Part shown: one piece after another, positions 1-22,334 of the stretch
Layout: every line of letters begins with the position of its first letter
How positions within the stretch are numbered: the stretch's first letter is position 1
Assembly: GCF_000003605.2 (NCBI RefSeq)
Contig: NW_003132368.1
Location: 50,604 to 76,241 of the forward strand
Direction of reading: 5' to 3'
DNA from: Saccoglossus kowalevskii
Lineage: Eukaryota; Hemichordata; Enteropneusta; Harrimaniidae
DNA length: 25,638 nucleotides
The notes under the pieces: generated by a model
The model's input: only the letters and a program-made list of their open reading frames with translations
Database searches by the model: none
Told to the model about the DNA's origin: nothing
Translations under genes and position numbers: made by a program

Positions 1-893
1 TGAAGTTATTGTCGCGAGTTTATATTAGATTGAGATATTGGGTATTGCTTTGATTATTTTCTATTTTAGTGAGGGTGAGTTTAATGTAGGTCAGTGAAAT
101 TATTCAGATATTTTTGCGATGCAATCACACAAATAATATATAAAAGAAAAAACTCTTTGGTGTATGTTACATGATACATTTCATATAATTACACTGTAAA
201 CGGGAAAATATTCTGGTTATTCTGACCACTGTATACAGTATATGACAATTTACAAGTGATATATTGGAATGACCTTCAGTATGAAAATACAAACTCAATT
301 CGAAGGTAGAGTAATTGTCACTTATATTCGCGGGATAATCATGGATTATCTCTGTCCATATTGTACGATTCTAGGGAAATTAAATAGGCCCATTGTTTGA
401 ATTGAAATCGCGTTAAGTTATAGCTATGATACAGCTAAACCAAATTTTGTACTCATAGAACTCATAGAAGTATCTTCAATTTAATTTCTAAATTGAAAAA
501 GTATGGCAATGAAATTTCTACAATCATCAAACCTAGAAACCATACTTAAAGATAATTTTTTTTCCAGAAAGCATATAAATACACTTTTGATCAATTTTGT
601 CAAAACTAAATAATGGCAGCGAAACCACGTTGCTGATCACATTTGTTATTTCCCCTGCACGGTGCTATAACCACATATGCTGCATGCCTAGTATTAAGTT
701 CATTGGTTATATCACTCATGAGAAACAAATACAGACTTTTTTTTTCAATATCTGCCAATAAATCAAAATGCAAGTCAAAACCAGTGACTGATCATAGTAT
801 TTATTCTTCCTAGTAAAATGTTCTTTAGAGGAAGATGATGATGAACAACAATCACTGTCGGTTTAGGGGTAATGTATGGTGTTTGTTTCTTAC
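1..893 (-). other. Intron leading to a seventh A exon just outside the window
   Basis: Bases 1-60 (tgaagttattgtcgcgagtt and following) match the sequence directly 5' of the other A exons, for example from 8311 and from 12082. By alignment to D3, the acceptor of the next A exon would lie about seven bases beyond position 1. The rest of the segment matches the other B-to-A introns. No exon of its own is seen. Confidence 0.85.
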
Positions 894-1106
894 CTTCTGC
901 CATGACCCGCATTTCACAAAAGTTGAGAAGTTCAGATTTGTCTACAAGCTGCATACTAACATAACGACCAACTATTGGACCGCTACATTCGAAATAAATG
1001 TTAGCCTGACTGGTTTGACTTTCAGTTATTATATCACCACATTGCTCATTTTGGGAAATATCTTCTGACAAACCAACTCGGATCTCTGAATTCACAATAC
1101 GATTTT
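894..1106 (-). CDS. D6 exon B: C-terminal half of sixth F-type lectin domain
   Basis: 213 nt, NRIVNSEIRVGLSED after the split codon. It reads ISQNEQCGD where the other five have ISRNTQCGD, and SELLN as in D2. It has FECSGPIVGRY, FCEMRVMAE and donor GAAG|GTAAGAAAC. The open phase 1 donor at the end shows that the transcript continues into another A exon to the left, so this is not the terminal domain. Confidence 0.96.
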
Positions 1107-1684
1107 CTGAAATGTAATAAACAAAATGATAGAGTGTTATGTTTATTTATTGTAGGAATTAGTGCAGGCTGATTACTGGTCAAAATGAAACAGTTTGACA
1201 TTGATAATAAGATAATTTATCGCAGTAGCTGCATTGTTGAACTGCCATTAGAGTATGCAGTCTATTTGCATATTATGAATGTCAGTGCTATCTGATAGAA
1301 AGGCCATCATTTATTTGTTTATTTCCTTATTCCAAAGTTATCTCCTTTATAGACTGACTTATGATGTTTTTTATACAATGCAGTGTTCGTTTTTGTGTAG
1401 TCATATTCATAGTCCCCAGATCAGAAGTATTCTATGAATGATATTTATGTTTCATTAACAAAAGTTAAATCTTCAAATTTGGGGCAAACATTTTAAGCTC
1501 CAAAGAAACTTGGTCCTACTGACTGAAGAGATTTACATTCTTAGAGTGTTTTAAACACCATGTTTCGATTTATAAAGCAAAATGGGTATAGTGTAATATG
1601 TATCCAATACGATTTAATACTATTGGAAGCCATTGTTACATTAGGTATTAAAACATATTACGAACAATACAAGAAGAAACTCAC

Positions 1685-1915
1685 TACAGCAGTCTTGGCG
1701 ATTAGTAACAATAACTTCATACACAAGGTAGTTTGCACCGAGATCGACTTTCCACCAGGCACCTTCTTCTTCCTGAGTACTGGTACAACTACCACTACCC
1801 CAGTTTGTGTTGATATTACCATCCACAGCATTGCTTGCCGGGAAAGATGCTGACCAATCACTACTTTGCGTTGCTGTCTTCCCAATTGCCACATTCTCCA
1901 GTATTGGTTGGTATT
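1685..1915 (-). CDS. D6 exon A: N-terminal half of sixth F-type lectin domain
   Basis: 231 nt, EYQPILENVAIGKT, DWSASF, NAVDGNINTNWGSGSC. The loop is TSTQEEEG, strongly acidic where D5 is basic. It has GANYLVYE instead of GAKY, then NRQDCC. The last exonic base is A rather than G (TGTA|GTGAGTTT), so the split codon with exon B is AAA (Lys) instead of GAA or GCG. The donor is still consensus from +1 onward. Confidence 0.96.
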
Positions 1916-2790
1916 CTAAGATAAAATTATTGTCGCGAGTTAATATTTTATTGAGTTAATGGATATTGTTTTGATTATATTCTATTTTGCGGAGGGATGA
2001 GTTCATTATAGGCCAGTCAAATTATTCTGACATTTTTGAGATACAATTAGACCAATAATATGTAAACAAAAACTCAGAAATTTTTGGTTTGTGTTTTATG
2101 ACATATTTCATATGATTACACTGCAAACAGGAAAATATTCTGGTTATAGTGACCACTGTATATACACTATAGCCAATCTACAATTGATATTTTGGAATGA
2201 CCCTCGGGATGCAATTACTAACTCAGTTCGAATGTCGATAGAGTAAATGTCAGAATTATCCACGGCATATACATAATTAATCTGCGTCAATATCATACGT
2301 TTCTATTAAAATCAAATGCGCGTATTCTTCGAGTTAAGATCGCGTGCAATAAGTTATGGAAACTATGATACACCTAAACCTAAATTCAAAAATTGTAGTC
2401 ATAAAATTCCTACAATTATCCAACATAGAAACGTTATTTCAAGACAAAATCTTCTCGAGTCAGCAAAGAATTAAACTTTTGATAAAGTTTGTCAAAAATC
2501 AATAATGGCAACGAAACCACGTTACTGATACAAATCATGTTATTTTTCCCGTGAAAAACTTAAGACATATATGGTGCATGCTAATATCAAATTGAGTGAT
2601 TGAAACGCTAATGAGAAACAGATGCAAAGTTGTTTTAAAATTGTTACCCAAACAATCAAAATTCCAGTCAAACGTCGTAAGTGATCATATTATTTAATTT
2701 TTCTCGTAATATTTTCTTTAAAAGAAGATGAACAAAAATAACAACACATCATAGTTAGTTTTGAGGTAATGTATGGTGTTTGTTTCTTAC

Positions 2791-3003
2791 CTTCTGCCAT
2801 AACCCTCATTTCACAAAAGTTGAGGTATTCGGATTTGTCTACAAGCTGCATACTAACATATCGCCCAACTATTGGACAGCTACATTCGAAATAAATGTTA
2901 GACTGACTGGTTTGGCTTTCAGTTATTATATCACCACATTGAGTATTTCGGGAAATATCTTCTGACAAACCGACTCGGATTTCAGAATTCACAATACGAT
3001 TCG
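2791..3003 (-). CDS. D5 exon B: C-terminal half of fifth F-type lectin domain, with an extra cysteine
   Basis: 213 nt, ANRIVNSEIRVG (split codon GCG, as in D3). The loop reads FECSCPIVGRY: a GGT-to-TGT change gives a seventh cysteine two residues after the conserved one. The six conserved cysteines are otherwise intact, so this one should be unpaired inside the domain and free to link domains or chains. It ends FCEMRVMAE and GAAG|GTAAGAAAC. Confidence 0.97.
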
Positions 3004-3680
3004 CTGAAATATAATAAACAAAATGATAGTGTCATGTTCATTCATAGTAGGAATTAGTGCTTGCTGATTACTGGTCATTTCCGATCTAACGTGACGTATT
3101 GTGTGGCAATATTGCGCGATGTGTACATGTCATTTGGATGAACACCAGTACAGTGAAAGTAAATCATTGTACTCATACACGAATGACGCTTGATTCTGGT
3201 TTACTTTCAAAAAAGGAATATAACAACAAAATAAAATACTCAAAAAGGAAAAGTTTGACTTTGATAATTAGATAATTTGTTGCAGTAGTTTGCATATTGA
3301 ACTGCCATTAAAGTATGCAGTCAATTTGAATATTATTAATGTCAGTGATATCTAATAGCATGGCCCTCATTTATTTGTTTATTAGCAAATGCCAACATTA
3401 TCTCCTTAGCAGACTGACTTGTGATGGCTGTAATAGAATGAAATGTTCACTTTTGTTTATTCATTTTCGTGGCCCCAGATCAGTATCCTATGAGTCATAG
3501 TTATTTTTCATTAAAAAATCTACATTCACGTGTTTTTAAAGTCCATGCTTCGAATTATAAAGCAGAGTGAGTATAGTATAATAAGTATCTAATACGATTT
3601 AATACTATTGGAAATATTTCAAAAGCCTTTGTTACATTCAGTATTAAAACAGATTACGAATAAACCCAGAAACAGCTCAC

Positions 3681-3911
3681 CGCAGCAGTCTCGGCGATTA
3701 GTAACAATTACTTCATATACAAGATATTTTGCACCAAGATCAACTTTCCACCAGGCACCTTTTTCTTTCTTAGTACTTGTACAGCTACCACTTCTCCAGC
3801 TCGTGGCGGTATTACCATCCACAGCATTGCTTGCCGGGAAAGATGGGGACCAATCACTACTTTGAGTTGCTGTCTTCCCAATTGCCACATTCGCTAGTAT
3901 TGGTTGGTATT
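3681..3911 (-). CDS. D5 exon A: N-terminal half of fifth F-type lectin domain
   Basis: 231 nt, EYQPILANVAIGKT. Its middle differs from the others: NTATSWRSGSC, where other copies have T(A/N)TNWGSGSC, putting a positive charge beside the predicted calcium and sugar site. The loop is TSTKKEKG, the most basic of the set. Ser again replaces the classical His. NRRDCC and donor TGCG|GTGAGCTG close the exon. Confidence 0.97.
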
Positions 3912-4743
3912 CTAAAAGGAATTTATTGTCGCGAGTCAACATTTCATTGAGGTAAAGAATATTACTTTGAATACTTTTTTTTTATTTTGTGGAGGGGTGA
4001 GTTTATTCTAGGTCGGTCAAATTATTTCGATATTTTTTGAGATAAAAAAAAGTTCAAAACCTTTGGTGTATTTTACATGGCACATTTCATATAATCACAC
4101 TGTAGACTTAAAATAACCCGGTTATAGTGACCACTGTATACACTATACGACAATATACAAATGAGTTTTCGAAATTTTCCTCAGTATGCAAATACTGAGT
4201 CAGTTACACAGTAGATAAAGCAATTGTCCAAAATATCAACGGCATATACATGGTCTATCCTCATCCCTATTGTACGTTTTTATTGAAATCAAATTAGCGC
4301 CGTGTTTCAGTCAAGATCGCGTGCATTAAGTTATAAAAGATATGATACACCTAAACCTATTTCTACAATCATCTATTCTAAAAATATCACTTCAAGACTA
4401 CTTCTCCTCGAAGAAGCATACAATTAAACTTTTGATCAATTCTGTCAAAAATGAATAATGAAGGCGAAACCAGGGTGTTGATCAAAATTATTTTATTTTT
4501 CAGGTATGTAGCTGTAGGTATATATGATACAAGCCTAATATCAAGTCAATTGGTTAAAGCACTCACGAGAGAAACATGCAAACTTGTATTGCCATTTTTG
4601 CCACAAAATCAAAATGCTAGCCAAACTTCGTGGTTGGCAATGTTATTTAATTTATTCCGCAAAATGTTTTTTAGCAAAAGAACAATGACAATAACTACAC
4701 TTCATAATTGGTTTGGAGGTAACGTATGGCGTTTGTTTCTTAC

Positions 4744-4956
4744 CTTCTGCCATGACCCTCATTTCACAAAAGTTGAGGTATTCAGATTTGTCTACAAGCT
4801 GCATACTAACATAACGCCCAACTATTGGACCGCTACATTCGAAATAAATGTTAGACTGACTGGTTTGGCTTTCAGTTATTATATCACCACATTGAGTATT
4901 TCGGGAAATATCTTCTGACAAACCCACTCGGATTTCAGAATTCGCAATACGATTTT
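4744..4956 (-). CDS. D4 exon B: C-terminal half of fourth F-type lectin domain
   Basis: 213 nt, ENRIANSEIRVGLSED (IAN shared with D1), then QCGD, FECSGPIVGRY, SEYLNFCEMRVMAE and donor GAAG|GTAAGAAAC. All three cysteines and the calcium-site CE pair are present. Nothing is disrupted, so this half-domain should fold normally. Confidence 0.97.
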
Positions 4957-5134
4957 CTGAAATGTAACAAATAAAATGATAGAGTGTTATGTTCATTCTT
5001 AGTAAGAATAAGTACTGGCTGACTACTGGTCAATTCCAATCTCTTCACGTGAGGTATTTGGCAGGAATCTCATGGAATGTGTACACGAAATTTGGTTGAA
5101 CACTACTGCACCGTACATGAAAGATGTTTGATTC

Positions 5135-5825
5135 TTATGTGAGCTAAGTAAAGTTGGTCATTGAGGGCGCTATTTAATCTGTATTATTTTTGATGATTTC
5201 TACTTATCTTTTTTGATAACGTAGGTATGTATTTAAACCATTTTTTTAGGATATCTGATTTGTGTATTTTCAGTAATTTAATGTATTAGTTATTATGGAA
5301 TTGGCCAAAAAGGGTGAACTTTGAATAACAATAGAAGTTATTTGCATATTTCCAATGAAACTTAGCACTGGGAAGTCAGTTTTGGTCAGTAACATCATTG
5401 GCGAAGTATCACCTTCTTTTCACTTCTCTGACCACTGAATCATTCAGACCAGAGTTGGTTTGTGGATGTTTAAAGTCCAGATCATTTCAACCGTGTTTAA
5501 CACAAGTGCAGTTTATGACTCCTACAAGCCAGACTGTGTTGCATTTGTTAGATTTGACCTACTGACGGAGTATGAAGATTGTTGCCATTGTTCTAGCCAT
5601 GTGCTTCAATGTCCATGTAATGTTTTGTTCCTGATATGTGATTTAACTTATTCTTTGTTCACTTTCATCGAAACGGCAACTCTAGTATTAGTGTGAATGG
5701 TATTTTTCCATTTAAATATAGTTAATTTTCACAATATAATTTCTTATATTTTCATAATGTTTTAGGTTTTAAGTTCCTGTAATTTACAGTGTCATTCTCC
5801 TATGTAAGCTTGGTTAATAAACAAA
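5135..5825. mobile_element. About 0.69-kb insertion in the D4 intron
   Basis: The flanks match the other A-to-B introns (left: ...gtttgattcttatgt; right: agtttgacttaaataatt...). The segment between has no counterpart in the other copies and lengthens this intron to 1356 nt. It contains a short plus-strand reading frame (5460-5696) with no recognised similarity, and AATAAA close to its right end. No clear terminal repeats or target duplication are visible, so retained ancestral sequence is as possible as an inserted element. Confidence 0.5.
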
Positions 5826-6312
5826 GAAAGAGTTTGACTTAAATAATTATATAACCTGTTGCAGTAGGCCGATAATTGAACTAGCATTAGAGTATGCCTT
5901 CAGTTAGCATATTATGAATGTCAGTGCTATCGGATATGATGGCCTTCATTTATTTATTTAGTTCCTGATGACAAAGTTATCTGTTCAGTAGACTGACTTG
6001 TTCTTTTTTCGTAATCATATTCATGGTTCCCAGATCAGAAGTATCCTTAGTCATAGTTATGTTTCATAAACAAAAGCTAATTCTTAAAATTCAGGCCAAA
6101 CGTTTTGAGCTCCAAAGAAACTTGGCCCTACTGACTAAGACGATCTACACACTTTGAGTCTTTTTAAACACCATGTTTCGATTTCTAAATCAAAATGAGT
6201 ATAGTTTAATATGAATCTAGTAATAAGGTTTAATACTATGGGGAGTATGTCAAAATATATTGATACATTCAGTATTAATACGGATTACGAATAAACACAA
6301 AAAAGAACTCAC

Positions 6313-6543
6313 CACAGCAGTCTTTGCGATTAGTAACAATTACTTCATACACAAAGTATTTTGCACCGAGATCCACTTTCCACCAGGCACCGTGTTCTTT
6401 CTGAGTACTGGTACAGCTACCACTACCCCAGTTTGTGTTGGTATTACCATCCACGGCATTGCTTGCCGGGAAAGATGGTGACCAATCACTACTTTGCGTT
6501 GCTGTCTTACCAATTGCCACATTCGCTAGTATTGGTTGGTATT
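6313..6543 (-). CDS. D4 exon A: N-terminal half of fourth F-type lectin domain
   Basis: 231 nt, EYQPILANVAIGKT with DWSPSF, NAVDGNTNTNWGSGSC and loop TSTQKEHG. As in D2, a His occurs in KEH while the classical His position (46) is Ser. It then has WWKVDLGAKYFVYE and NRKDCC, with donor TGTG|GTGAGTTC. Its shared KEH, AKYF and NRK features group it with D2. The intron that follows is about twice the usual length because of an insertion. Confidence 0.97.
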
Positions 6544-7194
6544 CTGAAATGAAATTATTGTCGCGAGCCAATATTTGATTGAGTTGAAGCATATTGCTTT
6601 GATTATTTTATATTTTGGAAAGGGTGAGTTTACACTATACGACAATCTACAGGTGGTATTTTGAAATTTCCTTCAGTATGCAAATACTGAGTCAGTTGGA
6701 AAGTAGATAAAGCAATTGTCAGAAATATCAACGGCATATAAATGGTCTATCCCCATCCCTATTTTATGTTTTTATTGATATCAAATTAGCGCCGTGTATT
6801 AGTTAAGACCGCGTGCATTAAGTTACAACAATTATGACGCACCTAAACCTATTTTGTACGCATGGAAGTGTCTGCACTTTTAATTCTAAATTGAAAAATT
6901 GTGCCGATAACATTCCAACAACCATCCATCCTAGAAATCTCACTTCAAGACTACATCTTCTCGGGAAGCATAAAATTAAACTTTGATCATTTTTGTCAAA
7001 TATCAATAATGATGCTGAAACCAGATTGCTGATTCAAATTATATTATTTTTCACGTAAGTAGCTGGTGGCATACGCTGCATGCATAATATCAAGTTGATT
7101 GGTTATTTAATTTGTCTCGCAAAATGTTCTTTAGCAAAAGAACAACAACACATCATAATTGTTTTGGAGGTAACGTGTGATGTTTGTTTCTTAC

Positions 7195-7407
7195 CTTCTG
7201 CCATAACCCGCATTTCACAAAAGTTGAGGTATTCAGATTTGTCTACAAGTTGCATACTAACATAACGCCCAATTATTGGATTGGTACATTCGAAATAAAT
7301 GTTAGACTGACTTGTTTGGCTTTCAGTTATTATATCACCACATTGAGTATTTCGGGAAATATCTTCTGACAAACCGACTCGGATTTCAGAATTCACAATA
7401 CGATTCG
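7195..7407 (-). CDS. D3 exon B: C-terminal half of third F-type lectin domain
   Basis: 213 nt, beginning with CG so that the split codon becomes GCG (Ala): ANRIVNSEIRVG rather than ENRI. The loop after the third conserved cysteine of this half is FECTNPIIGRY, so residues 119-120 are Thr-Asn instead of Ser-Gly and Ile replaces Val. The rest (SEYLNFCEMRVMAE, then GAAG|GTAAGAAAC) matches the consensus. All conserved cysteines and the second binding Arg are present. Confidence 0.97.
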
Positions 7408-8073
7408 CTGAAATATAATAAACAAAATGATAGTGTCACGTTCATTCATAGTAGGAATTAGTGCTTGCTGATTACTGGTCATTTCCGATCTAACGTGACG
7501 TATTTTGTGGCAATTTTGCGCGATGTGTACATGTCATTTGGATGAACACCAGTACAGTGAGAGTAAATCATTGTACTCATACATGAATGACGCTTGATTC
7601 TGGTTTACTTTCAAAAAAGGAATATAACAACAAAATAAAATACTCAAAAAGAAATAATTAAATAATTTGTTGCAGTAGTTTGCATATTGAACTGCCATTA
7701 AAGTATGCAGTCAATTTGAATATTATTAATGTCAGTGCTATCTAATAGCATGGCCCTCATTTATTTGTTTATTAGCAAATGCCAAAATTATCTCCTTAGC
7801 AGACTGACTTGTGACGGCTGTAATAGAATGAAATGTTCTTTTTTGTTTATTAATATTCATGGCCCCAGATCAGAAGTATCCTATGAGTCATAGTTATTTT
7901 TCATTATTAAATCCACATTCACGTGTTTTTAAACACCATGCTTCGAATTATAAATCAGAATGAGTATAGTGTAATAAGTATCTAATACGGTTTAATACTA
8001 TTGGAAATATTTCAAAAGCCTTTGTTACATTCAGTATTAAAACAGATTACGAATAAACCCAGAAACAACTCAC

Positions 8074-8304
8074 CGCAGCAGTCTCGGCGATTAGTAACAA
8101 TTACTTCATATACAAGATATTTTGCACCAAGATCAACTTTCCACCATGCACCTAGTTCTTTCTTAGTACTGGTACAGCTACCGCTACCCCAGTTTGTGGC
8201 GGTATTACCATCCACAGCATTGCTTGCCGGAAAAGATGCTGACCAATCACTACTTTGCGTTGCTGTCTTACCAATTGCCACATTCTCCAGTATTGGTTGG
8301 TATT
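8074..8304 (-). CDS. D3 exon A: N-terminal half of third F-type lectin domain
   Basis: 231 nt, starting EYQPILENVAIGKT after acceptor TTTTAG. It has NAVDGNTATNWGSGSC followed by TSTKKELG, WWKVDL and NRRDCC. The classical His position is Ser and the loop tip is KEL. The splice donor is TGCG|GTGAGTTG, with TGC codons for both cysteines, as in D5. The 3' half of the exon and its intron are close to those of D5, suggesting recent exchange between the two copies. Confidence 0.97.
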
Positions 8305-8989
8305 CTAAAATGAAGTTATTGCCGCGATTCAACATTTGATTGAGTTATTGCATATTGTTTTGATTATTTCCTATTTTGAAAAGGGTGAGTTTAATCTATG
8401 TTGGTCAAATTATTTCAAAATGTTCGAGATGCAACTAGATAAATAATATGTAAACAAAACTTTAAAGTCTTTTGTTTGTGTTACATGTTACATTTCATAT
8501 GATTACAATGTAAACAGGAAAAAAATCTGGTTATAGTGACCAGCGTATACATTATATAACAATTTACAGGTGATAGTTTGAAATGACCTTCAGTATGACA
8601 ATACAAACCCAATTTGAAGGTAGATAGACCAATTGTCAGGATTATTCGCGGCATATTCATGGATTATCTCTGTCCATATTGTACGTTTCTAGTGAAATTA
8701 AATAGGCCCATTGTTTGAGTTGAGATCGCATGCATTAGGTTATATTACTTATGATACACCTGAATGTATTTTTGTAAGCATGGAAGTATCTGCATTGTTA
8801 ATATCAATTCAAAAATTGTGGCGATGGAATTTCTAAAATCATCCAGCCTAGAAACCTTACTCCAAGACGACCTCTTCTTGAGGGAGCAAAGAATTAATCT
8901 TTTGAAACGACGTTGATGACCACAATTATGTTATTTCTCCCGTAGGGGCTTTAGGCATATATAGGTAGTGTACGGTGTTTGTTTCTTAC

Positions 8990-9202
8990 CTACTGCCATG
9001 ACCTGCATTTCACAAAAGTTGAGAAGTTCAGATTTGTCTACAAGCTGCATACTAACATAACGCCCAACTATTGGACCGCTACATTCGAAATAAATGTTAG
9101 CCTGACTGGTTTGGCTTTCAGTTATTATATCACCACATTGAGTATTTCGGGAAATATCTTCTGACAAACCCACTCGGATTTCAGAATTCACAATACGATT
9201 TT
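8990..9202 (-). CDS. D2 exon B: C-terminal half of second F-type lectin domain
   Basis: 213 nt, starting ENRIVNSEIRVGLSED after acceptor TTTCAG. It contains the QCGD and FECSGP cysteines, GRYVSMQL, and ends FCEMQVMAV before GTAG|GTAAGAAAC. It has SELLN where D1, D3, D4 and D5 have SEYLN, a feature shared only with D6. The intron that follows (8305-8989) is shorter than most because the usual stretch just 3' of the donor is reduced. Confidence 0.97.
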
Positions 9203-9812
9203 CTGAAATGTAACAAACAAAATAATATTGTTGTGTTCATTCATAGTGGGAATTAGGGCTGGATGATTACTGGACATTTTCAATCTCATCACGTGAGGTA
9301 TTTGGAAGGAATCTCATATGATGTTTACATGTAATTTGGATGAACGCCAGCACAATAGAAGTAAAACATTGTATTCATACCAGAAACACGCTTGATTCTG
9401 ATTTAATTTAAATGAATAAAACAACGATATAAAATATAAAGTCTATTATGAATGTCAGTGCTATAGGATAGCATGGCCCTTGTTTATTTGCAATTGCTAA
9501 AGTAGAAAAGTAATCGTATTCAGGATTCTCAGATCAGGAGTATCATATTAGTCATAGTTATGTTTCATAAACAAAATTTAATTCTTCAAATTCAGGGAAA
9601 ATGTTTGAGCTCCAAAGAAACTTTGCCCTATAGACTACAGAGATCTACACACTTGGAGCGTTATTTAAACACCATGTTTCGATTTCTAAAGCAAAATGAG
9701 TATAATTTAATATGTATCTACTTATATGGTTTAATACTATGGGGAGTATGTTAAAATCCATTGCTCCATTCAGTATTAAGACAGATTACGAATAAACCCA
9801 GAAAGAACTCAC

Positions 9813-10043
9813 CACAGCAGTCTTTGCGATTAGTAACAATTACTTCATATACAAAGTATTTTGCACCGAGATCCACTTTCCACCAGGCACCGTGTTCTTT
9901 CTTAGTACTGGTACAGCTACCACTACCCCAGTTTGTGGCGGTATTACCATCCACAGCATTGCTTGCAGGGAACGATGAGGACCAATCACTACTTTGCGTT
10001 GCTGTCTTACCAATTGCCACATTCGATAGCTTTATTTGGTATT
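9813..10043 (-). CDS. D2 exon A: N-terminal half of second F-type lectin domain
   Basis: 231 nt, opening EYQIKLSNVAIGKTATQSS (the linker differs from the usual EYQPIL). NAVDGN supplies calcium ligands; GSC at residues 42-44 supplies a further ligand and the cysteine that pairs with FC in exon B. The residue that is His in classical F-type lectins (position 46, after SCT) is Ser. The following loop is TKKEHG, so a histidine sits five positions later. NRKDCC provides the first binding arginine and the adjacent-cysteine disulfide. The donor is TGTG|GTGAGTTC. Confidence 0.97.
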
Positions 10044-10860
10044 CTACAATGAAGATATTGTCGAAAGTCAGCATTTGATAGAATTAATGAATATTGGTTT
10101 AATTTTTCATTTTATTTTGTGGAGAGGTGAGTCTAATCTAGAGCAGTCTTTGAAAGTCGTTGGTGTGTGATACATGATACATTTTATATGATTACACTGT
10201 AAACAGGGGAATATTCTGGTTATAGTGATTAGCGTATTCAGTATATGACAATTTACAAGTGATATTTTAGAATGTTCTTCGGTATGCAAATACTAACACA
10301 GTTTGAATGTAGATAGAGCAGTTATTAGAAATATCCACGGCATATACATTGTTTATCTCCGTCAATATCGTACGTATTGAAATCAGTTGAAATCGTGCTT
10401 TGTTTAAATTATGATCATGTGCATTAAGTTAAAATAGTTGTGATACACCTAAACCCACTTTTGTACGCATGAAAGTATCTGAATCTGAAATTTCTACAAT
10501 CATTCATCCTAGAAACCTTACTTCAAGACAACATCCTCTCAATAAAGCAATAATGTATTAATCAATTTTGTCAACAATCAATAATGGCGGCGAAACCACG
10601 TCAGCTGATTAAAAGTATATCGTTTTTCCCTGTAAGTATCTTTAGCATATATGCCACAAGCCTAATATCAAGTTGATAGGTTGAAGAGCTCATGAGAAAC
10701 AAATGCGAACTTTTTCGCCATTTTTACCAAACAATTCAGAATGCCAACCAAACCTTGTGTTTGATCATGTTATTTAATTTTCTCATAAAATGTTCTTTAG
10801 AAGTAGAAAAACAACAAGAATAAGTCATAGTTGATTTACTGTATTGAGTTGGTTTCTTAC

Positions 10861-11073
10861 CTGCTGCCATAACCTGCATTTCACAAAAGTTGAGGTATTC
10901 GGATTTGTCTACAAGCTGCATACTAACATAACGCCCAACTATTTCAGGACTACATTGGAAATAAATGTTAGCCTGACTTGTCTGGCTTTCAGTTATTATA
11001 TCACCACATTGAGTATTTCGGGAAATATCTTCTGACAAACCGACTCGGATTTCAGAATTCGCAATACGAGTCT
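10861..11073 (-). CDS. D1 exon B: C-terminal half of first F-type lectin domain
   Basis: 213 nt, phase 1 in and phase 1 out. It begins ETRIANSEIRVG (the Arg in TRI corresponds to the second fucose-contacting arginine of eel lectin) and ends CEMQVMAA before donor GCAG|GTAAGAAAC. It carries the QC...FQC disulfide pair and the FCEM motif, where the Cys closes the domain and, with Glu, completes the calcium site. It is the most divergent B exon in the loop before GRYV: FQCSPEIVGRY, where most copies read FECSGPIVGRY. It also has Thr for the Asn in 'NRI'. Confidence 0.95.
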
Positions 11074-11501
11074 CTGAAATGTAATAAACAAAATGATAGT
11101 GTTATGTTTATTCTTAGTAGGAATCAGTGCTGGCTGATTACTGGTCATTTTTAATTACATCGCGTGTCATATTTGGTAGGAATCTCAAGGGATGTGTACA
11201 CTAAATTTTGATGAACGTCTGTAAGTAAAAGTAAAACATTGTAACCATACACAAAAGACGTTTGATTCTGATTTACTTTTAAAGGAATACAACAATGAAA
11301 TAAAATTCTCAATAGTTTGATAATTAGTTAATAATTGCAGGAGGTGGAATATTGAACTACCATTAGAGTCTACTTGCATATTATGAATGTTAGTGATATG
11401 ACCCTCATTTTGTTTGTTTATTTGCTGTTGCCAAATTTATCTCCGTTGTAGACTTGTGACGGTTGTGATACATTGAAATTTTCTTTTTTGTGTAATCATA
11501 T

Positions 11502-11976
11502 NNNNNNNNNNNNNNNNNNNNNNNNNNNNNNNNNNNNNNNNNNNNNNNNNNNNNNNNNNNNNNNNNNNNNNNNNNNNNNNNNNNNNNNNNNNNNNNNNNN
11601 NNNNNNNNNNNNNNNNNNNNNNNNNNNNNNNNNNNNNNNNNNNNNNNNNNNNNNNNNNNNNNNNNNNNNNNNNNNNNNNNNNNNNNNNNNNNNNNNNNNN
11701 NNNNNNNNNNNNNNNNNNNNNNNNNNNNNNNNNNNNNNNNNNNNNNNNNNNNNNNNNNNNNNNNNNNNNNNNNNNNNNNNNNNNNNNNNNNNNNNNNNNN
11801 NNNNNNNNNNNNNNNNNNNNNNNNNNNNNNNNNNNNNNNNNNNNNNNNNNNNNNNNNNNNNNNNNNNNNNNNNNNNNNNNNNNNNNNNNNNNNNNNNNNN
11901 NNNNNNNNNNNNNNNNNNNNNNNNNNNNNNNNNNNNNNNNNNNNNNNNNNNNNNNNNNNNNNNNNNNNNNNNNNNN
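11502..11976. other. Assembly gap of 475 N
   Basis: The run of N hides roughly the last 119 nt of the D1 A exon, including the SCT segment, the variable loop, and the WWKVDL and NRxDCC motifs, plus the start of its downstream intron. The true length is unknown. Near-identical tandem copies on both sides are a likely cause of misassembly, so a missing extra copy cannot be excluded. Confidence 0.95.
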
Positions 11977-12076
11977 TTTGTGGCGGTATTACCATCCACA
12001 GCATTGCTTGCCGGGAAAGATGAGGACCAATCACTACTTTGCGTTGCTGTCTTGCCATATGCCACATTCGTTGATT
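11977..12076 (-). CDS. D1 exon A, partial: N-terminal half of first F-type lectin domain
   Basis: Acceptor TTTTAG at 12078-12077, then (G)AA TCA ACG AAT GTG: the domain starts ESTNVAYGKTATQSS and reads through DWSSSFPASNAVDGNTAT before entering the N gap. The NAVDGN segment carries the Asn, Asp and Asn expected to bind calcium. Compared with every other A exon, 12 nt are missing near the start, so the linker residues YQPIL-like are reduced to 'ST'; this fits a domain that follows a leader rather than another domain. It also has Tyr where the others have Ile (VAYGKT against VAIGKT). If the gap length is accurate, the exon should end near 11858 inside it. Confidence 0.9.
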
Positions 12077-12733
12077 CTAAAATGAAGTTATTGTCGCGAG
12101 TCAACATTTGAATGAGATAGCGGACATTGCTTTGATTATTTTCTATTTTGAGGAGGGTGAATTTATTCTTGGTCAGTCAAAACATGTCTGATATTTTAAA
12201 AACTTACTAAATTGTATACTTATGTTTTGAAAAGTATTTTTGATATAGAGATCCTTGTCAATAATAAAATATGGCTCATTTGCGTGGCGACAAGAAATGT
12301 ATATCTGGACGTATTGACAAATAGAATATGCATAAAGTATTGTTAGTTGAACGTGTACTTGACATTGAAATTATAAAGAAGAATTTAGTTCCACCTAATC
12401 AAATACAGATTTGATTTTTTCGGAATGATTGATTATTAAGGAAATTGATATAATGATTAAAATACACACTGGGCAATTGATGGTATATTTCAAAATAGGT
12501 GTCAAGTGTAAATGATTAATTGCCTGTTGTTCAAATAAGTGTACAGATATTGACAAGAAGTTTCGAAGTAACCAATCATAACACGGCCCACGAAGAAGGT
12601 AATAATAGTGATTTGGAAGCCCGATTAGTAGTGCAATTTTGTTGTTATTCTTAGCGAGAATATATCTGAAATAAAAAATAAATATTTTTTTTTTCAGATT
12701 ATAAATACTTATATCGTGAAAATCCTTATTTAC

Positions 12734-12770
12734 CTTCATTCTCTCTGGGAAATCTACCAGCCAGGTTTGC
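12734..12770 (-). CDS. Candidate 37-nt exon 2 (mature N-terminus or linker)
   Basis: A pyrimidine-rich acceptor (TTATTCTTTTTTAAATAG) precedes 37 nt that end in a good donor, GAATGAAG|GTAAATAAG. Read from phase 0 it encodes ANLAGRFPRENE plus the first base of a codon. This accepts a phase 0 upstream exon (the signal-peptide exon ends in phase 0) and hands over in phase 1, which the D1 A exon requires; G plus AA gives Glu. The exon is 657 nt upstream of D1. The peptide has no recognisable domain. Evidence is limited to splice signals and phase agreement, so a chance match is possible. Confidence 0.4.
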
Positions 12771-14330
12771 CTATTTAAAAAAGAATAAGTTATTATTTAT
12801 TATATGTGCCAAGATTTTGTAATGAGGTATAAATAAGCAAAGAATGGGTTTAAATGATAATCAGATGATCTTATGCAGAAGGCTTTTCACGAATCAACTA
12901 CTCAGATTGATATATGACAGGTTCAACCGGTAGGGGAGAATATTCTCATTATTCTCAATTGTTCGTCTTAATCTCGATGTCCACATATCATTCTTTTGTA
13001 CATTAATTGTTGTAAATGCTCATAGATTGATGATTTCATGTCAAGTTGTGTAGCACTGTACACATTGTCATATGTATGTGTGTAAATGTACCCTGTCCCA
13101 CGAGTATATGTCCATTTTACTTTGTTAAACTACCTATGCGATCATTGATGTGGAATTAATGGATGGCTATGTCAGTGTATATTGCACTACTCATCTGGAA
13201 TGCATAAATTATAATTAAGGTAGAGATGCAGTTTACCTGACAGGTATTTTAATTAGTTAATTAGGAAACCAAGATGACCTCCCTTGTCCACAAAACTATA
13301 TATTTTCGGAAAGCGTATTGTATGAATTTTAAAATTTTGTTAGTATTTATTTTTATGGTCACTGTAGTTTGAAATATGCACAAAAATGTGCTTTTTTGGT
13401 CAAAAGTGATTTAAAAAAAATAGATTCTAAACCATGCTTCTGTTTGCTGTCAAAATTAGTTCATGGGTACATCTGTTACTATGAAACAAGTGCCGTCTTG
13501 AAAACTGTCTACCACTTGTAAATTTTGCAGGGCAGCAGCCCAAAATTCACTACTTCAAGTTTATGCATAAATTAACACCCAGGCTAGTTGTCTGTACGAT
13601 TGTTGTAACACTATTCAACCAAAAACAATGCCCCGACGGCGTTTTGAAGATAAACACATTGTCAATCATTTGTGAAAATTTCAAAACAAAAGGTCAAAGC
13701 GTCTAGGAGCTATTTTTTTAAGTTCCGGGATGTGCACTAAAAAGAAGCTGAGATAATTGCTAATTTGCATAACAATTCACTCAGTAAGAAGTTCTCTAAT
13801 GCTCATAATTAAAATGGCTGTAACAGTTCCAAAGTTAAATATAGTGCATAATATGGAGATCCCGTCATTTCTTTTTTTCACCATGTTTTTTGTTTATTAT
13901 TTATGTACAGCCTTGCTAAATCTTGCTAAGCATTCAAAAGAGAGAATGTTTGCACCTGTTATCTATATTTTAAAATCGTTTTTTGAGTATGTTCTACTAT
14001 TCTACAAAATTTTAACAGTCTATAGCCAAGACTGTTTGGATAATAAAAAGCAAAAAAAAACAAAAAACATTTTACTCCCAAGTGCCCACGAACCTGCATC
14101 TCTACCTTAAAGCTTCAATCAGCAATACGGGTTACAATCAAGTTGTTTTCTAGGTGGTTGGTAAACTTAACCTTATTATTATTTATATGATCATAAACAG
14201 AGAAAATAGTAGTGGTTGTAGTAGTAATAGTTTGTAGTTTTTAAACAAAAACTGTGAAAGTGTTTGCACAAGAGATAATACAACGTGTGTGGTTGCACTT
14301 TGCTTTTCATAAAATTCAATTTCATCACAA
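12771..14330. other. Intron 1, array-proximal part: no gene recognised
   Basis: AT-rich sequence. Reading frames here, such as 13757-14110 on the plus strand, are low-complexity Leu/Phe/Lys frames with no domain. No RNA gene or clear repeat boundary was seen. Confidence 0.5.
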
Positions 14331-14415
14331 ATTCACTCCACCACATTGTCAAAGCGAAGAGGCCAATACCGTGAATGTGCTAGAAGAGTTAAACTCTGTC
14401 AAGACGATGTGATGT

Positions 14416-14790
14416 TTGGCAGGCAATGTAACAGAAAGCGATTCTCGTCGTTCAGTGACGATAAAGCTACCACCAATATGGGAACAAGCAGTGCTCGACA
14501 TAAAGATATCACCGCCACTGGTTACCCTACAACATCCACCGCATACGTCATTCAATATAATGGCCCAGTTATCAGAGATCAATACACGACTGTACAATCT
14601 TGAGAGTGTGCAAGGTAAAATTTGGCAACTTGACGAAACAACAGGTGGGATAAAAGTTCCGTGGAAGTCATAAGCACCATGTTTGAAAGTTTTGAAAGTC
14701 TCAAATCACCATGTTTGAAAGCACAAACAAAAAACTAGTATTAGAAAACAGTGAACTAAGAATCTAGACAAGTATATTCATCGAAGTAAC
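14416..14790 (+). pseudogene. Possible ORF1 relic of a non-LTR retrotransposon
   Basis: An open frame from 14416 to 14670 encodes a peptide with KLPPIWEQAVLDIKI, then a stretch of coiled-coil character (LSEINTRLYNLESVQGKIWQ). After a stop, another frame gives KLVLENSELRI near 14740. Coiled-coil ORF1 proteins precede ORF2 in LINE-type elements, and an ORF2 fragment lies just downstream on the same strand. Assignment is by position and character only, not by a recognised domain. Confidence 0.35.
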
Positions 14791-14870
14791 CTAAAAAATC
14801 ATGGTATACTAGTAATATCTGAAATCATCACCTTCCAATCAAAATTAATAAAAATAAATCTAAATCAGCC

Positions 14871-15200
14871 CACAGACAATGGATCACTAAAGGTATCCTA
14901 ATATCTTCCAAAACAAAGCACAAATTATTTTTAAAAACGCGGAGTCGCCCAAATAATTTTCAAATAATTGATAACTATAAATCATATCATATCTTACTGA
15001 CGAGGCTGCTTAGGACGGCTAAGAAAACGTATTATTCAAGGAAAATAGTTATAGAAAGATGATAATGCCAGTAAAACGTGGAAAGTAATCAATGAGATGT
15101 TTTAAATGAAACCACCAGCACCAAAGTTCTCAAAACGTCAATAAAACAGCCATCACAAAAAACTGCAATCTTGCAGAAGAATTCAATGATTTTTCGTAAA
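14871..15200 (+). pseudogene. Degraded non-LTR retrotransposon ORF2 fragment (endonuclease-RT linker)
   Basis: Frame 14871-15059 reads HRQWITKGILISSKTKHKLF ... YKSYHILLTRLLRTAKKTYY, ending IVIER before a stop. In neighbouring frames follow SKTWKVINEMF (about 15070) and LAEEFNDF...VNAIT (about 15173). This order (W-I-T-K-G-I, R-x-A-K-K-x-Y-Y, T-W-K-V-I-N-E, then EFNxFFVN) is typical of the segment between endonuclease and reverse transcriptase in CR1/L2/Jockey-like elements. Several stops and frame changes show that it is dead. The catalytic RT motifs are absent. Confidence 0.75.
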
Positions 15201-15320
15201 TGCCATAACCTAACTCTGTGAAAAAATAATTTCTTGTTTTAAATGTATTTTTTATTCATATTAGCATATATTATAATTGCTGCATTATGGGTGGGGATGA
15301 GTAGTTATTAGCATGCATGT

Positions 15321-15335
15321 GGGGGGGGGGGGGGG
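15321..15335. repeat. Poly-G run (15 G)
   Basis: An uninterrupted run of 15 G in otherwise AT-rich DNA, just past the retrotransposon relic. It could form a G-rich structure and is prone to length error in sequencing. Confidence 0.9.
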
Positions 15336-15713
15336 TAGTGTATGTTTTTAGTGATTGAAATATTTAATTTAATTTAATTCATTTAATATAATCATTGTTT
15401 GCATACTCGAATAATGATTTTGATAAACTTGTGCCTGCAGTAGTTTTATAAACTCAACAAAACAGTAAATTTGTATCGTTTAATTGCAATAAATAATCTC
15501 TAGTTTCAATTGTATGTGGGGCACTATTTTATTTGTATTACCAGATTATCAAAATATATTCTTAACAGATAGCTTTCTATTGTGATGGAGACCCTCTATA
15601 ATTGAGATCAGTTTCTGTATTTCCTATTCTTTATTTTAACGCAGCACACTATATACTTGTTTGCGATTCCCATGAAACATCCTTGAAAAATAAATATAAA
15701 CTGCGTAAACAGG

Positions 15714-16564
15714 GGTGAACGCGAAAGTCCAACAGACCTGCAATCAGATGGAACGACCTCACCGGCCATATTTGGGCTTGTGAATTTGCATATATGTCAT
15801 ACGGTGGGTGGAGCAGCCAAGCCACGGATCATAACCGGACATTGCATGTGCCTGTGTTTACTTGTCTCGCGCTATGTTACCATGCTGTTAATGTCAACAA
15901 AATTGAATAAAACAACCACTATTTCTCCAAGAACGCAAGAAATTATTTGTATTGTGTGCGGTCATCGTAAAGGCAGACGAAAGCTGACAAAATGACCCTT
16001 GCTTTCCAGGAAATTAATGATCCGTTGTTTCAGACAAATGTCGTCTGTCGAAGTTGTTCCAGGAAGGGGACAATTTGAAAAAATAATCAAAGTAAAGGGT
16101 CAAGTTGAAATACCCAAATAGCAAAGAAACCAGGCCACTAAGGTCCACCATATTTAAACCATGGGTGTTCGTTTTCTGGGCCTGTTCTTTCAACGCAATT
16201 AATGTCAGCACTATAGTGTCGGGGTTTTCTTTAAGCTCAGTGTCTGTAGACGGCTTTGGTGTCCTAATACTTTTAAGGCTCGCTCCACACATTCTTTTGA
16301 TAACATTGCATTCTTTTCTGAAATTCAAGCTAAAATGTATGCGATTCGGATCTGAGAAAGTATATACAATTGTCGGGATCTAAGTTTATCCAAGAAAGTA
16401 TGTATGGTTTCAGGGGTCTCAGTTCATTTGTTAATTAGCCTGTCTTCTGATTAATAATAGACATGTCAACCATTACAAGCCCTGATCTGTCCGGTAATGT
16501 GAGGGCGCTTACACTGATTGTAAGTCTCTAGGGATTTCACGGTTACAGGACTTTCGCGTTCACC
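15714..16564. mobile_element. Non-autonomous DNA transposon-like element with terminal inverted repeats (851 bp)
   Basis: The ends are perfect 17-nt inverted repeats: GGTGAACGCGAAAGTCC at 15714-15730 and its reverse complement at 16548-16564. Imperfect inverted similarity continues inward: CAATCAG (15741-15747) against CTGATTG (16514-16520), and GGGCTTG (15774-15780) against CAAGCCC (16476-16482). The interior has short frames on both strands (for example 15780-15995 plus, with CIVCGHRKGRRK) but no recognisable transposase. No target-site duplication is obvious at the exact ends, so the true termini may extend a little further. Confidence 0.7.
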
Positions 16565-16799
16565 TCTCGCACTTTATATCTATTCTTCATCAGAATCGCA
16601 ACAGATGGCAAGCAACTTGAAGTTGACAGACGCTATCACAAAATTCAAGTTACTGATTGAATTTGATTGGCAGCTATCGGATGTTTCATGCAGCATTACA
16701 ATAGTCCCATGCATAGTCATAACACACTAGACTGGTTGCCGCTGACTGTCACTGGGGGCAACCTGATACCGTGGACAAAGAGTCAATGAAATGTCCCAC

Positions 16800-17760
16800 G
16801 AATTCGTCCGAAAACGGGGACTTATAATTCGGTCTCCGTCCGTCTGTGCGTCTGTGCGTCCGTCCGGAGTCATATCTCAGAATCCCTTGGACCGATTCCG
16901 TTCACTCTTTGCATGTGCCTAGTACTTGATGTGGGACATATGCATATGCAGTGGTTTAGCGATTCGATTCAAAATGGCCGACTGGCAGCCATCTTATTTT
17001 TTGAAAATGTTTTTTTTGGACATGCTTTATCAGTTTTCATTTAAACTTGGTACATAGATTAAACATGTTAGGATACATGTTCATGACGATTTATTTCAAA
17101 ATTGGATCAAAGATGGCCGACTGACAGCCATCTTGTTTTTTGAAAATGTTGTATTTTGAACATGCTTTGTATGTTTTCATTCAAATATAGTACATAGATC
17201 ATACATGTCCGACCGTCCGTGCGTTCCTGAGTCTGTCCATCTCTCCATGTGTCCGTCCGTCCCTCAGTCTGTCCAGAGTCATATTTCAGAATCCTGTGGA
17301 CCGATTCCGTTCATTCTTTGCATGTGCCTAGTACCTTATGTGGGACATATGCCCATGCAGTGGTTTAGCGATTTGATTCAAAATGGCCGACAGGTAGCCA
17401 TCTTGTTTTTTGAAAATGTTGTATTTTGAACATGCTTTGTCAGTTGTCATTCAAACTTGGTACATAGATAGGAACATGTCCATGATGATTTATTTTGCAA
17501 TTGGATCAATTGGACTGGCAGGCATCTTGTTTTTTTATATGCGGTATCTTGGACGTGCTCTGTCAGTTTTCATTCAAATTTGGCACACACATGTACTTTA
17601 TACATTTAGGATGTATGTCCATGACATCTGACTTTTTGGCCTTACTACTATATTTCCACAATTTATGTACCATTTGCATTCGTATTTGGCACATACGTAC
17701 ATATCAGTGTGTTTCATAATCAGATCAAAGATGGCCGAATAACGGCTGTTTTTATTTTAG
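16800..17760. repeat. Diverged tandem repeat: about 410-bp units with nested 'atggccgac...agccatctt' subunits
   Basis: GTCCGT-rich start, AGTCATATCTCAGAATCC, GACCGATTCCGTTCA, CATGTGCCTAGTAC, GTGGGACATATG and AGTGGTTTAGCGAT recur in order at about 16830-16970 and 17240-17380, a period of about 410 nt. Within and after these, AAAATGGCCGAC, AGCCATCTTGTTTTTTGAAA, ACATGCTTTGTCAG and TTCATTCAAACTTGGTACATAGAT recur near 16971, 17110, 17379 and, more decayed, 17507 and 17737. This style of dispersed repeat is common in invertebrate genomes. The small frames it contains are not genes. Confidence 0.8.
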
Positions 17761-19260
17761 GCCATATGACTACTACACGGAACACGTGTTTTGATGTAAA
17801 TAAATATATTGTATACGCCACTTGGAACTCAAGTTTTAAGGACACGCTCGTCACAACCCCTCCGCTTTAATATGACGAGCACAAGGAGAACTTAATTTAA
17901 CGGGGACTGTGTCATTTTCAATGACTTGTTCAAACTGTTCATGTACAATAGCTACTACATAAACCCGGGTTTTAAAAACAAAACAATAGTACATTACTGG
18001 AAATTCTTATGTGTCAAACGTTTTCCAACAGTACTTGAACACCTTAAAGTACAATGTAGTGTGGCTTATGTTGATAGACATGAGAAGCCTAGCGGTGAAC
18101 TCTCTCTCAATGAAGGGTCGGGAAAAGGATTAGTAATCATGAAGAATAATAAGGATGGTTAAAATGTCTCAATTACTGACGAGAGTTGGTTTCTCTGGAG
18201 AAGTCAGTGGCACAATAAAGTCTTGATATTTACAATATTCCTGTAACCGCGGATGATGTACCACACCCTCTATGAAATCAAATGAAATCTTGACATGCAC
18301 TTTGTCTGAAGGGGACTAAGTCAGGTGCTATCCGTCGTCTGAATCGTATATGCGCAGTTTCGCCAGCTCGATATAAACATACCCCCCCCCCACACACACA
18401 CACACACATGCACACGGTGTGGGAATCTACCGAGAAGTCGCGGTAAAATGCTGAAATCTGATTGGAGGCGCCTCCAAATTAGTGACAACTGGTCCTGAAA
18501 CAAAATGTAGCGTTGTGCTCCGATCGCAAAGAATCGCCGATACAAAAATGGTGACCTCTCCCCCAGAATTCTAAGTTGAATTATTAGAACACACTGGAAA
18601 ACGAACGTCATCAATTGGAATTGTTAACGAGATTACTGATAGTAATAAATGCAATTTCACTAACAAACAAGGACATTTTCTTAGAATTATTGTAAAGGCT
18701 CGTCGTTTACCATGTTGAATTATCCTCATCCGAATGATGTACCATGAGATGATAACATTTTGGTGTTTGCGGCCAGATCTTAAGTAAATAAGGCTGGTTT
18801 GGATCAGGCTTTGAGTAGATTAATTGTGACGGAAGAGCTGTCGCGACAGTATTGTGTTTTTTTTTAAGAATATTAATAGTTGTGCTTTCGCTCAAATTGA
18901 GACAGGAATTGGGCTACTTGATAAACTTATTACCAAACGCTTGAGCGTGGTATTGAGAGTTTGTTTTCAGGGGTAGGTGTTACCAAGGTGGAAAATGGTT
19001 GCACATATGGGGATAATTTCTGGAATTGCAATAGAGAGGGTTCCGGTCGTAATACAGTATATATATTGTGTTTTCATGTTTCGTCTAATACTTCTGTGGT
19101 ATTCTGCTGCTGTAACTAATGCAAGATTTGTTCTGAAATTCAGTGTATTGTGTGCACTCAAGGGTTATTCGTTTTTTGCTGAAAACACCCCTATGTTTTA
19201 TTGGCAGAGTCGACCTTGTTTCACTCGCACTGGGAAATCTGCATTGTCGCTTGAATAAGA
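17761..19260. other. Intron 1, middle part: no gene recognised
   Basis: Mostly unique-looking AT-rich DNA. A frame at 17926-18162 (plus) has a mixed-composition end (HEKPSGELSLNEGSGKG) that might be decayed coding sequence, but no family is recognisable. A C10(CA)n tract lies at 18382-18408. Confidence 0.4.
18382..18408. repeat. Poly-C and (CA)n microsatellite
   Basis: Ten C residues run into nine CA dinucleotides, followed by ATGCACAC. Confidence 0.9.
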
Positions 19261-19529
19261 GCTAATTAAACACAATTTCCAGACCGTAACCGTAGTATAT
19301 AACAGCCGATTTTAACAGCCTATCACGTGATTTTACTCAGAATGTCAACATGGGAAGAGGCTATTTCATTTTACGCGGAAATAATTGGGAGTAGAATATG
19401 TGAGGGATTGTATTGCTGAGCATTTCTGTTTTAGTGTACTGGTTTGAAAATGTTGAATTTGCATGATTCGCGATGTTTTCTTTACTGAAACGCCACTAAT
19501 GGTTGAATCTCGGGTTTGAAGGAGAATGT

Positions 19530-19558
19530 AACAGCGCACCACGTCAGCGCACCACGTG
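19530..19558. promoter_or_regulatory. Direct repeat AGCGCACCACGT(C/G) with an E-box
   Basis: AGCGCACCACGTC and AGCGCACCACGTG are directly adjacent; the second copy includes CACGTG. Another CACGTG lies at about 19325 (TATCACGTGATTTT). The surrounding 19.3-20.0 kb is richer in CpG than its neighbours. A regulatory role is inferred from motif clustering only. Confidence 0.25.
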
Positions 19559-19724
19559 ATTCGTTTGAATACAATAGTGAAGGATAGGGCGCTGTCTTAC
19601 CTCGGTGAAACGTTTCGCAGTCAGTCATACCTCGGTTATGTTTAGTACGTAGTTTATAAATTTATGTTAAAATTTGGCAAGCATGCCGTGCAACTGTGGT
19701 ACTCCACTGATGGGATGACTTTCG

Positions 19725-19919
19725 TCAACAGCGGTCGTCGCTGAACTGCACGCTACAACTTTGCTTGTGATGTTGCTTGCTAGCCGTGGATTGAATGAAT
19801 CGTGACCGGTTAAAATTTTGCTCATTTGGCGTTAGTAATCTGTATTTGGAACTGGGTAACACCGCAACGTCGCCAGCAGAAACCTCCTGGTACTTAGATG
19901 TTAATGGTTGCGCCTCCAT
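19725..19919 (-). CDS. Candidate nested small ORF or first exon (64 residues, unknown)
   Basis: The ATG at 19919 lies in a strong initiation context (GCCATGG) in a CpG-richer patch. On the same strand a TATAAA (19972-19967) sits about 50 nt upstream, implying a very short leader. The product (MEAQPLTSKYQEVSAGDVAV and onward) is polar, with no signal peptide or membrane segment and no family I recognise. Further down the strand, two GAG|GTATGA and GAG|GTAAGA donor-like sites occur at 19631 and 19601, past the stop codon. It may be a small gene in lectin intron 1, a first exon spliced before the stop, or chance. Confidence 0.2.
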   Translation of the reverse strand: MEAQPLTSKYQEVSAGDVAVLPSSKYRLLTPNEQNFNRSRFIQSTASKQHHKQSCSVQFSDDRC

Positions 19920-19979
19920 GGCAATCGTTAATTTTACTGCGGGGATCTTCCGAGAGCCCTTCAGGGTTTATAAAACTCA

Positions 19980-21800: not shown

Positions 21801-21820
21801 TTTCAGTGCAGCTGGTTCAC

Positions 21821-21850
21821 GTATAAATAGATACTCAGCGCGTCTTCAAT
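21821..21850 (+). promoter_or_regulatory. Isolated TATA-box-like promoter on the plus strand
   Basis: GTATAAATAG (21821-21830) is followed at the proper distance by TCTTCAATT (A at about 21848), an initiator-like sequence. The first downstream ATG frames are under 20 codons, so any transcript would be spliced or non-coding. The motif is a good match, but a lone TATA sequence is weak evidence. Confidence 0.22.
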
Positions 21851-22231
21851 TTGGAACCGTTCGACGTTTGTTTTGATGCGGTCGTATATTTCATGGTATT
21901 TGTGGGAGATTGGTTGTTAGGCATTACTTTATGATGGTATAACATGGACATGCGCACATGCACAGACTAATTTTTAAATACAACATGTAATAGATGGAAT
22001 CAAAGTACGCGCATACCCTGACTATACAGCGCGGAAATTGTTACCAAATGTGTTGACGTTTAGGAAATCAAGTACGATTCGTTTGGGGGAAAATACTCAA
22101 TAATAAAGAATGAAGAGTTTTATTTATGCTCGATATTGGTATAGCATTATTACCTGAACATATTTAGCAATTACACCAGATATTGTACGCATATGCAATC
22201 CTACATTATTTTGAAAAATAAATAAACTTAC

Positions 22232-22288: not shown

Positions 22289-22334
22289 GTGTATTCGACG
22301 AAATGAGGAACGAATATGGAACCCACGGATCAGT

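Follow-up and report, generated by a model that had tools for sequence, protein, structure and literature searches.

The window analysed here, a 25,638-nt stretch of the Saccoglossus kowalevskii genome (C2403:50604-76241), carries on the minus strand of positions 1-12076 six tandem F-type lectin units, ordered from right to left and each composed of an exon A and an exon B. It is likely that this array belongs to a single F-type lectin gene with at least six, and probably seven or more, domains per transcript, which would have arisen by serial duplication of a module made of a signal-peptide exon, A and B (SP-A-B) and by later DNA exchange between the copies. The new observation is a decayed signal-peptide exon in the intron before each of A2 to A7.

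The layout of the array is highly regular. Exon A measures 231 nt in all five complete copies and exon B 213 nt in all six, as the initial annotation had it; the shorter first A exon that it also described is seen only at the start of A1, which begins with ESTNVAYGK four codons short of the other A exons and after 100 nt runs into an N gap (11502-11976) that hides its remainder and donor. Introns within units span 578-1356 nt, the 903 nt of unit 1 including the N gap and the hidden A1 end, and those between units 651-875 nt. All 11 complete exons are open and have intact splice sites. The earlier count of six copies holds; the seventh is visible only as an intron ending at base 1. The exons lie as follows:

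11977..12076, minus strand: exon A1 (first unit), 5′ part only, the remainder in the N gap 11502-11976
10861..11073, minus strand: exon B1, 213 nt, phase 1-1
9813..10043, minus strand: exon A2, 231 nt, phase 1-1
8990..9202, minus strand: exon B2, 213 nt
8074..8304, minus strand: exon A3, 231 nt
7195..7407, minus strand: exon B3, 213 nt
6313..6543, minus strand: exon A4, 231 nt
4744..4956, minus strand: exon B4, 213 nt
3681..3911, minus strand: exon A5, 231 nt
2791..3003, minus strand: exon B5, 213 nt, with an extra Cys (ECSCP)
1685..1915, minus strand: exon A6, 231 nt
894..1106, minus strand: exon B6, 213 nt
1..893, minus strand: inter-unit intron 3′ of B6, ending at the acceptor side of the unseen A7

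A chance origin of this repeat pattern is evidently not an issue, because the 300-nt repeats D1 and D2 are 74-95% identical among copies and a spliced unit matches striped bass FBP32 (3cqo) over nearly its full length with E=1.3e-47. The match to eel agglutinin AAA (1k12) is likewise nearly full-length (E=1.7e-25), and a query with one extra junction residue scored 66.7 bits against Pfam F5_F8_type_C, where the cut-off is 28.2. By sequence, the units are F-type lectin domains, for which canonical fucose binding is not claimed. The cation motif h2DGx, as defined in the excerpts of the review PMC5712786 on which all our statements from it rest, is present as AVDGN in the five complete units and in A1. 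The five complete units also keep the R, D, C, C and R of the RXDX4(R/K) motif with its vicinal Cys-Cys, and all five carry Ser at the position of the fucose-triad His. In AAA numbering, taken from the alignment of a spliced unit to 1k12 and consistent with the residues named in those excerpts, exon A bears the equivalents of His52 (Ser here), Arg79, Asp81, Cys82 and Cys83, and exon B that of Arg86. The extra cysteine of B5 (window 2791-3003) makes pairing between chains conceivable.

The clearest trace of how the array grew comes from its introns. The A exon at C352:43810-44055, the closest relative outside the window's scaffold among the matches listed, is preceded about 300 nt upstream by a likely signal-peptide exon, MYMSWICNIIAVAAFIL, with a GTAAGT donor in phase 1. 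The region of this apparently intact exon matches the inter-unit introns of the window (72.8% over 169 nt with E 2e-18 at best, and E 2e-5 to 0.04 for the other copies) as well as introns of a second array on C3226. The homologous, decayed exons in the introns preceding A2-A7 are:

10298..10349, minus strand: signal-peptide relic before A2; open frame, donor site GTTAGT, join to A2 giving TAA
8609..8660, minus strand: signal-peptide relic before A3; donor site GTTTGT; position obtained by comparing the aligned read with the window
6692..6743, minus strand: signal-peptide relic before A4; first ATG lost, donor site CTCAGT
4200..4251, minus strand: signal-peptide relic before A5; internal stop, donor site CTCAGT
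2223..2274, minus strand: signal-peptide relic before A6; open frame, donor site GTTAGT
295..342, minus strand: signal-peptide relic before the expected A7; donor site GTTTGT, 4 nt lost and a stop present; position obtained by comparing the aligned read with the window

All six have lost the GTAAGT donor, two contain stops and one lacks the first ATG; the relics of units 2, 3 and 6 are still open, and the unit 6 relic, its frame open and its donor site still starting with GT, has decayed least. Together with four copies from C3226, GTAAGT is lost in 10/10 aligned array copies (GTTAGT x2, GTTTGT x2, CTCAGT x2, GATAGC, TTTAGT, ATTTGT and ATCAGT), five of the ten have stops and two lack the first ATG. 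No relic aligned before A1 when the C352 signal exon was compared with the window, and a hydropathy scan inside the array found no signal-peptide exon with a phase-1 donor. Because the relics match the C352 signal exon in both arrays, the duplicated unit was most likely a whole gene start, SP-A-B, of which the internal signal exons would be fossils. Such relics fit one fused multi-domain gene and speak against one transcript per unit. The reverse history, in which the C352 signal exon was born from an array intron, is less likely. The available parts of the directly relevant F-lectin literature (PMC5712786, PMC3269628) do not mention such decayed exons in F-lectin arrays, although they may be described elsewhere in print.

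The duplicated copies appear not to have diverged in isolation. Units 2-6 were compared in 10 pairs by sliding identity and by a permutation test over 395 variable sites. For u3-u5, u2-u4 and u2-u6 the observed run score was reached in 0/2000 permutations each, so that recombination between repeats is supported in this assembly, with 3/10 pairs significant after correction. The tract linking units 3 and 5 lies as follows:

7319..8135, minus strand: conversion-like tract, unit 3 copy, covering the 3′ part of A3, the whole intron and the 5′ part of B3
2915..3742, minus strand: conversion-like tract, unit 5 copy; edges chosen by the permutation-test score

These two units share a recent tract across A, intron and B inside otherwise diverged copies: identity is 789/814 aligned sites inside the tract against 739/906 outside it. 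Within its edges the two copies agree at every position of the final 62 nt of A and the initial 89 nt of B, and their introns are 96.2% identical (25 differences in 663 sites), as against 90.5% for the first 169 nt of A and 76.8% for the following intron; outside this tract, intron divergence between units is about 16-27%. Assembly error aside, A5 and B5 look like chimeric exons. Mean pN/pS values of 0.30 for A and 0.37 for B, obtained from non-independent pairs, indicate that selection on the exons is purifying overall. Variable sites were not significantly concentrated near the pocket at any of the four distances tried (9/36 near it against 16/112 elsewhere, Fisher p 0.11; p 0.12-0.49 at the three others). 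Separately, window positions 5137-5820 hold sequence unique to the A4-B4 intron among units 2-6, in blocks of 477, 39 and 125 nt, inside which the repeats found were short and chance-like only.

The splicing anatomy is equally uniform. Every visible junction is in phase 1, as originally described, and units 2-6 become open frames once spliced. Acceptors end in AG (12/12), donors read GTGAGT or GTGAGC in the five visible A exons and GTAAGA in the six B exons, where read-through meets a stop only after 19-41 codons, and the splice sites are nearly identical across units. In all six units the pyrimidine tract is poorer at the A acceptor (9-10 of 16) than at the B acceptor (12 of 16). The placement of the A/B junction was checked against solved structures: the spliced unit aligns ungapped with 1k12 and with 3cqo domain 1 across the DCC..R motif, with a one-residue gap there against domain 2 of 3cqo, whereas the query with one extra junction residue required a gap against 1k12. 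That any A fits any B in frame was borne out by the 30 junctions tried (A2-A6 x B1-B6), all of them stop-free with E, A, K or T as the split codon. Nevertheless, joining A to A preserves the frame just as well, and the same phases would permit B-B joins, so that phase gives no preference to valid domains.

The same architecture recurs in the sampled part of the 572-Mb assembly, which contains at least 151 F-lectin exon matches, window included. The sample covered the 30 top-ranking loci, of which 11 lie in the window, together with a 10-kb stretch of C3226 and another 40 short pieces. It yielded 33 distinct A exons outside the window, 30 of them checkable, and all 30 have a phase-1 GT just after the Cys-Cys codons, 26 as GTRAG. 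Among the remaining four is a C3226 unit (NRLDDCC) whose automatic alignment ended one codon early; its GTGAG donor likewise follows Cys-Cys. Phase-1 symmetry is best read as an inherited, family-wide trait, because the intron place is shared by 30/30 testable A exons elsewhere in the genome, and for that reason it says little about splicing in the array gene. B exons are more variable: in 30 B matches elsewhere (at least one exon double-counted), 13 show a consensus phase-1 donor close to the end, another 12 lack one and meet a stop within 30 codons, and the last 5 show neither feature. The C3226 stretch (L039, 196000-205999) is a second F-lectin array of the same A/B layout with signal-exon relics; one of its A exons is frameshifted and one of its B exons contains a stop. 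Further observations on the family include many F-lectin exon matches on both strands of the 260-kb scaffold C4257 (about 95000-232600) and, at C352 about 41000-44055, a possible two-domain layout with joins placed by eye, in which a Ser-type unit with a signal exon is followed in phase 1 by a His-type unit and a stop after the B part.

The A/B intron cuts through the RXDX4R motif, and the codon that it splits, encoding E, A or K in units 2-6, comes directly after Cys-Cys. Because this intron lies inside the sugar-binding motif, DNA exchanges could reshape the binding pocket. With Ser in place of the triad His, the array product is predicted to have a probably altered sugar specificity. In an alignment of 34 A exons (the 33 outside the window, one of them decayed, and that of unit 3) the triad-His column reads H 13, S 5, Q 3, L 2, G 2, C 2 and others and is the 10th most variable of 70 columns, with C44 (34/34), R73 (34/34), D75 (33/33) and C77 (31/31) fixed around it; a further A exon (L073) has H beside an alignment gap there, and the C3226 array units have M, D, L and G at the His52 position. 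Specificity is probably altered or lost in many family members.

Taken together, these observations suggest the following history. Serial tandem duplication of a gene-start module, consisting of a signal-peptide exon, A and a B ending in a phase-1 donor, would have produced the array; splicing from B of one copy into the following A would have made the internal signal-peptide exons useless, and these would have decayed in the inter-unit introns, while the shared phase 1 was carried over from the duplicated module. Later gene conversion or unequal crossing-over between copies would account for the chimeric A and B exons. The exon anatomy points to a single transcript and to a secreted multivalent lectin as its product. 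In this light the mix-and-match of domain halves put forward in the initial annotation finds support at the DNA level, in the recombined chimeric exons, and the phases point only weakly to mixing at the splice level.

Regulated alternative splicing, which would mix A and B exons and vary domain number as in oyster sperm bindin, is somewhat unlikely for this gene. It would be permitted by the 30 stop-free junctions and perhaps, through exon skipping, by the poorer pyrimidine tracts of the A acceptors, and it has a precedent in Crassostrea gigas, where alternative splicing can set one to five bindin repeats per mRNA (PMC5712786). Yet the near-identity of splice sites in all units leaves no visible basis for a splice choice, the intron place is common to the sampled family, and A-A joins keep the frame just as well. 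A broader proposal, in which DNA exchange and splicing would combine A and B halves into new pockets as part of a large germline-diversified lectin repertoire, is conceivable because the intron cuts the sugar-binding motif between phase 1-1 exons and because the at least 151 exon matches include a variable triad-His position with fixed neighbours; on this view the open relics of units 2, 3 and 6 would be left over from a period in which a protein could begin at any unit. We regard the proposal as unlikely.

It is highly improbable that the units are independent small genes, each with a promoter, signal exon and end of its own. The relics do imply an ancestor resembling a complete gene start, B exons elsewhere often (12/30) end in a stop with no consensus donor, and the array strand carries AATAAA somewhat more often than base composition predicts (27 occurrences, about 17 expected). 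However, one transcript per unit is unlikely because all six B exons of the array keep a donor and the internal signal exons are decayed: all six relics have lost GTAAGT, with the two stops and the missing ATG noted above, and joining the unit 2 relic to A2 would create TAA. That the array is a decaying or silent pseudogene cluster, as the failure of the upstream scans to find a first exon, a decayed A exon on the same scaffold and the damaged exons of the C3226 array might suggest, is distinctly unlikely given 11/11 open exons with intact splice sites and pN/pS of 0.30-0.37. An origin of the mosaic pattern and copy number in the assembly of similar repeats would be favoured by the N gap inside the array and the long N runs beside the window, but intron pairs outside the u3-u5 tract, differing by about 16-27%, are easy to keep apart, and even the u3-u5 intron retains its 25 differences; we hold this very unlikely.

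Several findings nonetheless weigh against a single long gene grown by duplication and exchange. N runs, possibly assembly gaps, abut the window exactly on both sides (C2403:19093-50603, 31.5 kb, and 76242-100154, 23.9 kb) and hide the gene ends; a seventh A exon would start just left of base 1, where the 31.5-kb run lies. Hydropathy scans of the 13.5 kb upstream of A1 gave no convincing first exon, and signals alone, including the AATAAA excess, which is not decisive, would allow transcript ends between units. In the mosaic test 7/10 unit pairs had no significant tract after correction, the nearest being u4-u5 (0.065) and u3-u4 (0.145), and a draft assembly of a tandem array may be misjoined, mimicking mosaicism or altering copy number. 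The direction of change, with the signal exon lost in the arrays and not gained in C352, is argued, not proven. Lastly, 33 kb off on the same strand (C2403 about 16,970-17,245) lies a decayed A exon (L032), its frame broken by a 2-nt loss, with a GTGGGT donor and no B match nearby, which suggests that this locus includes dead units.

Array-like sequence upstream of A1 stops near 12197, which suggests that A1 is the first unit. The first-exon candidates beyond it were set aside: a long frame from 18611 has non-consensus donors, weaker frames have poor donors, and MVVKMIGMCFFFAAVLQAN (22288-22232, array strand), signal-peptide-like and with a GTAAGT donor, is in phase 0 and cannot splice directly to A1. 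In the search for a retroposon upstream of the first repeat, no family exceeded the cut-off in 10 ORFs (open reading frames), and no reverse-transcriptase domain was found at E 0.1 in six full frames of 12198-25638, a search in which long mixed frames may lose sensitivity. No tandem arrays scoring at least 50 were found below 17 kb, there was no Rfam match at gathering scores, and no relatives in viral contigs were confirmed. A block at window 16850-17600 consists of recurring phrases, including TTGTATTTTGAAAATG units, and by eye resembles a dispersed repeat.

Among solved relatives the closest is striped bass MsaFBP32 (3cqo), also built of tandem F-lectin domains, although it has only two, both with His where the array units have Ser. 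Anguilla anguilla AAA, with a single domain, shares the equivalents of Arg79, Asp81, Cys82, Cys83 and Arg86, and differs in its His52, which is Ser in all five complete units. Within the S. kowalevskii genome the other F-lectin loci (C352, C3226, C4257 and others) have the same A/B split where tested; C352 differs in keeping an apparently intact signal exon, and 12/30 B matches elsewhere lack a donor and run into a stop. The array illustrates how a small gene for a secreted lectin could plausibly have grown into a long multi-domain gene, through module duplication, inter-copy splicing and the decay of internal first exons, whose fossils can still be read. It is also a case of lectin exons undergoing recombination across an intron that interrupts the ligand-binding motif, in a genome whose large F-lectin family varies at a key sugar-contact position.

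The most instructive comparison is with oyster sperm bindin, for which, as above, the excerpts of PMC5712786 are the source. Both systems combine tandem F-lectin domains, a mid-domain intron and, assembly error aside, recombination, and some bindin isoforms likewise do not keep the His-Arg-Arg triad. They differ in that bindin has one to five units against the six visible here, in the overall purifying selection on the array, where pocket enrichment is not significant, and in the decayed signal-peptide exons of its inter-unit introns, unmentioned for bindin in those excerpts. GA/CT microsatellites beside the repeats together with an upstream retroposon, a feature of bindin, were not found at the array. 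Should its isoforms prove mixed, the array would provide a recognition repertoire comparable in logic to that of oyster bindin.

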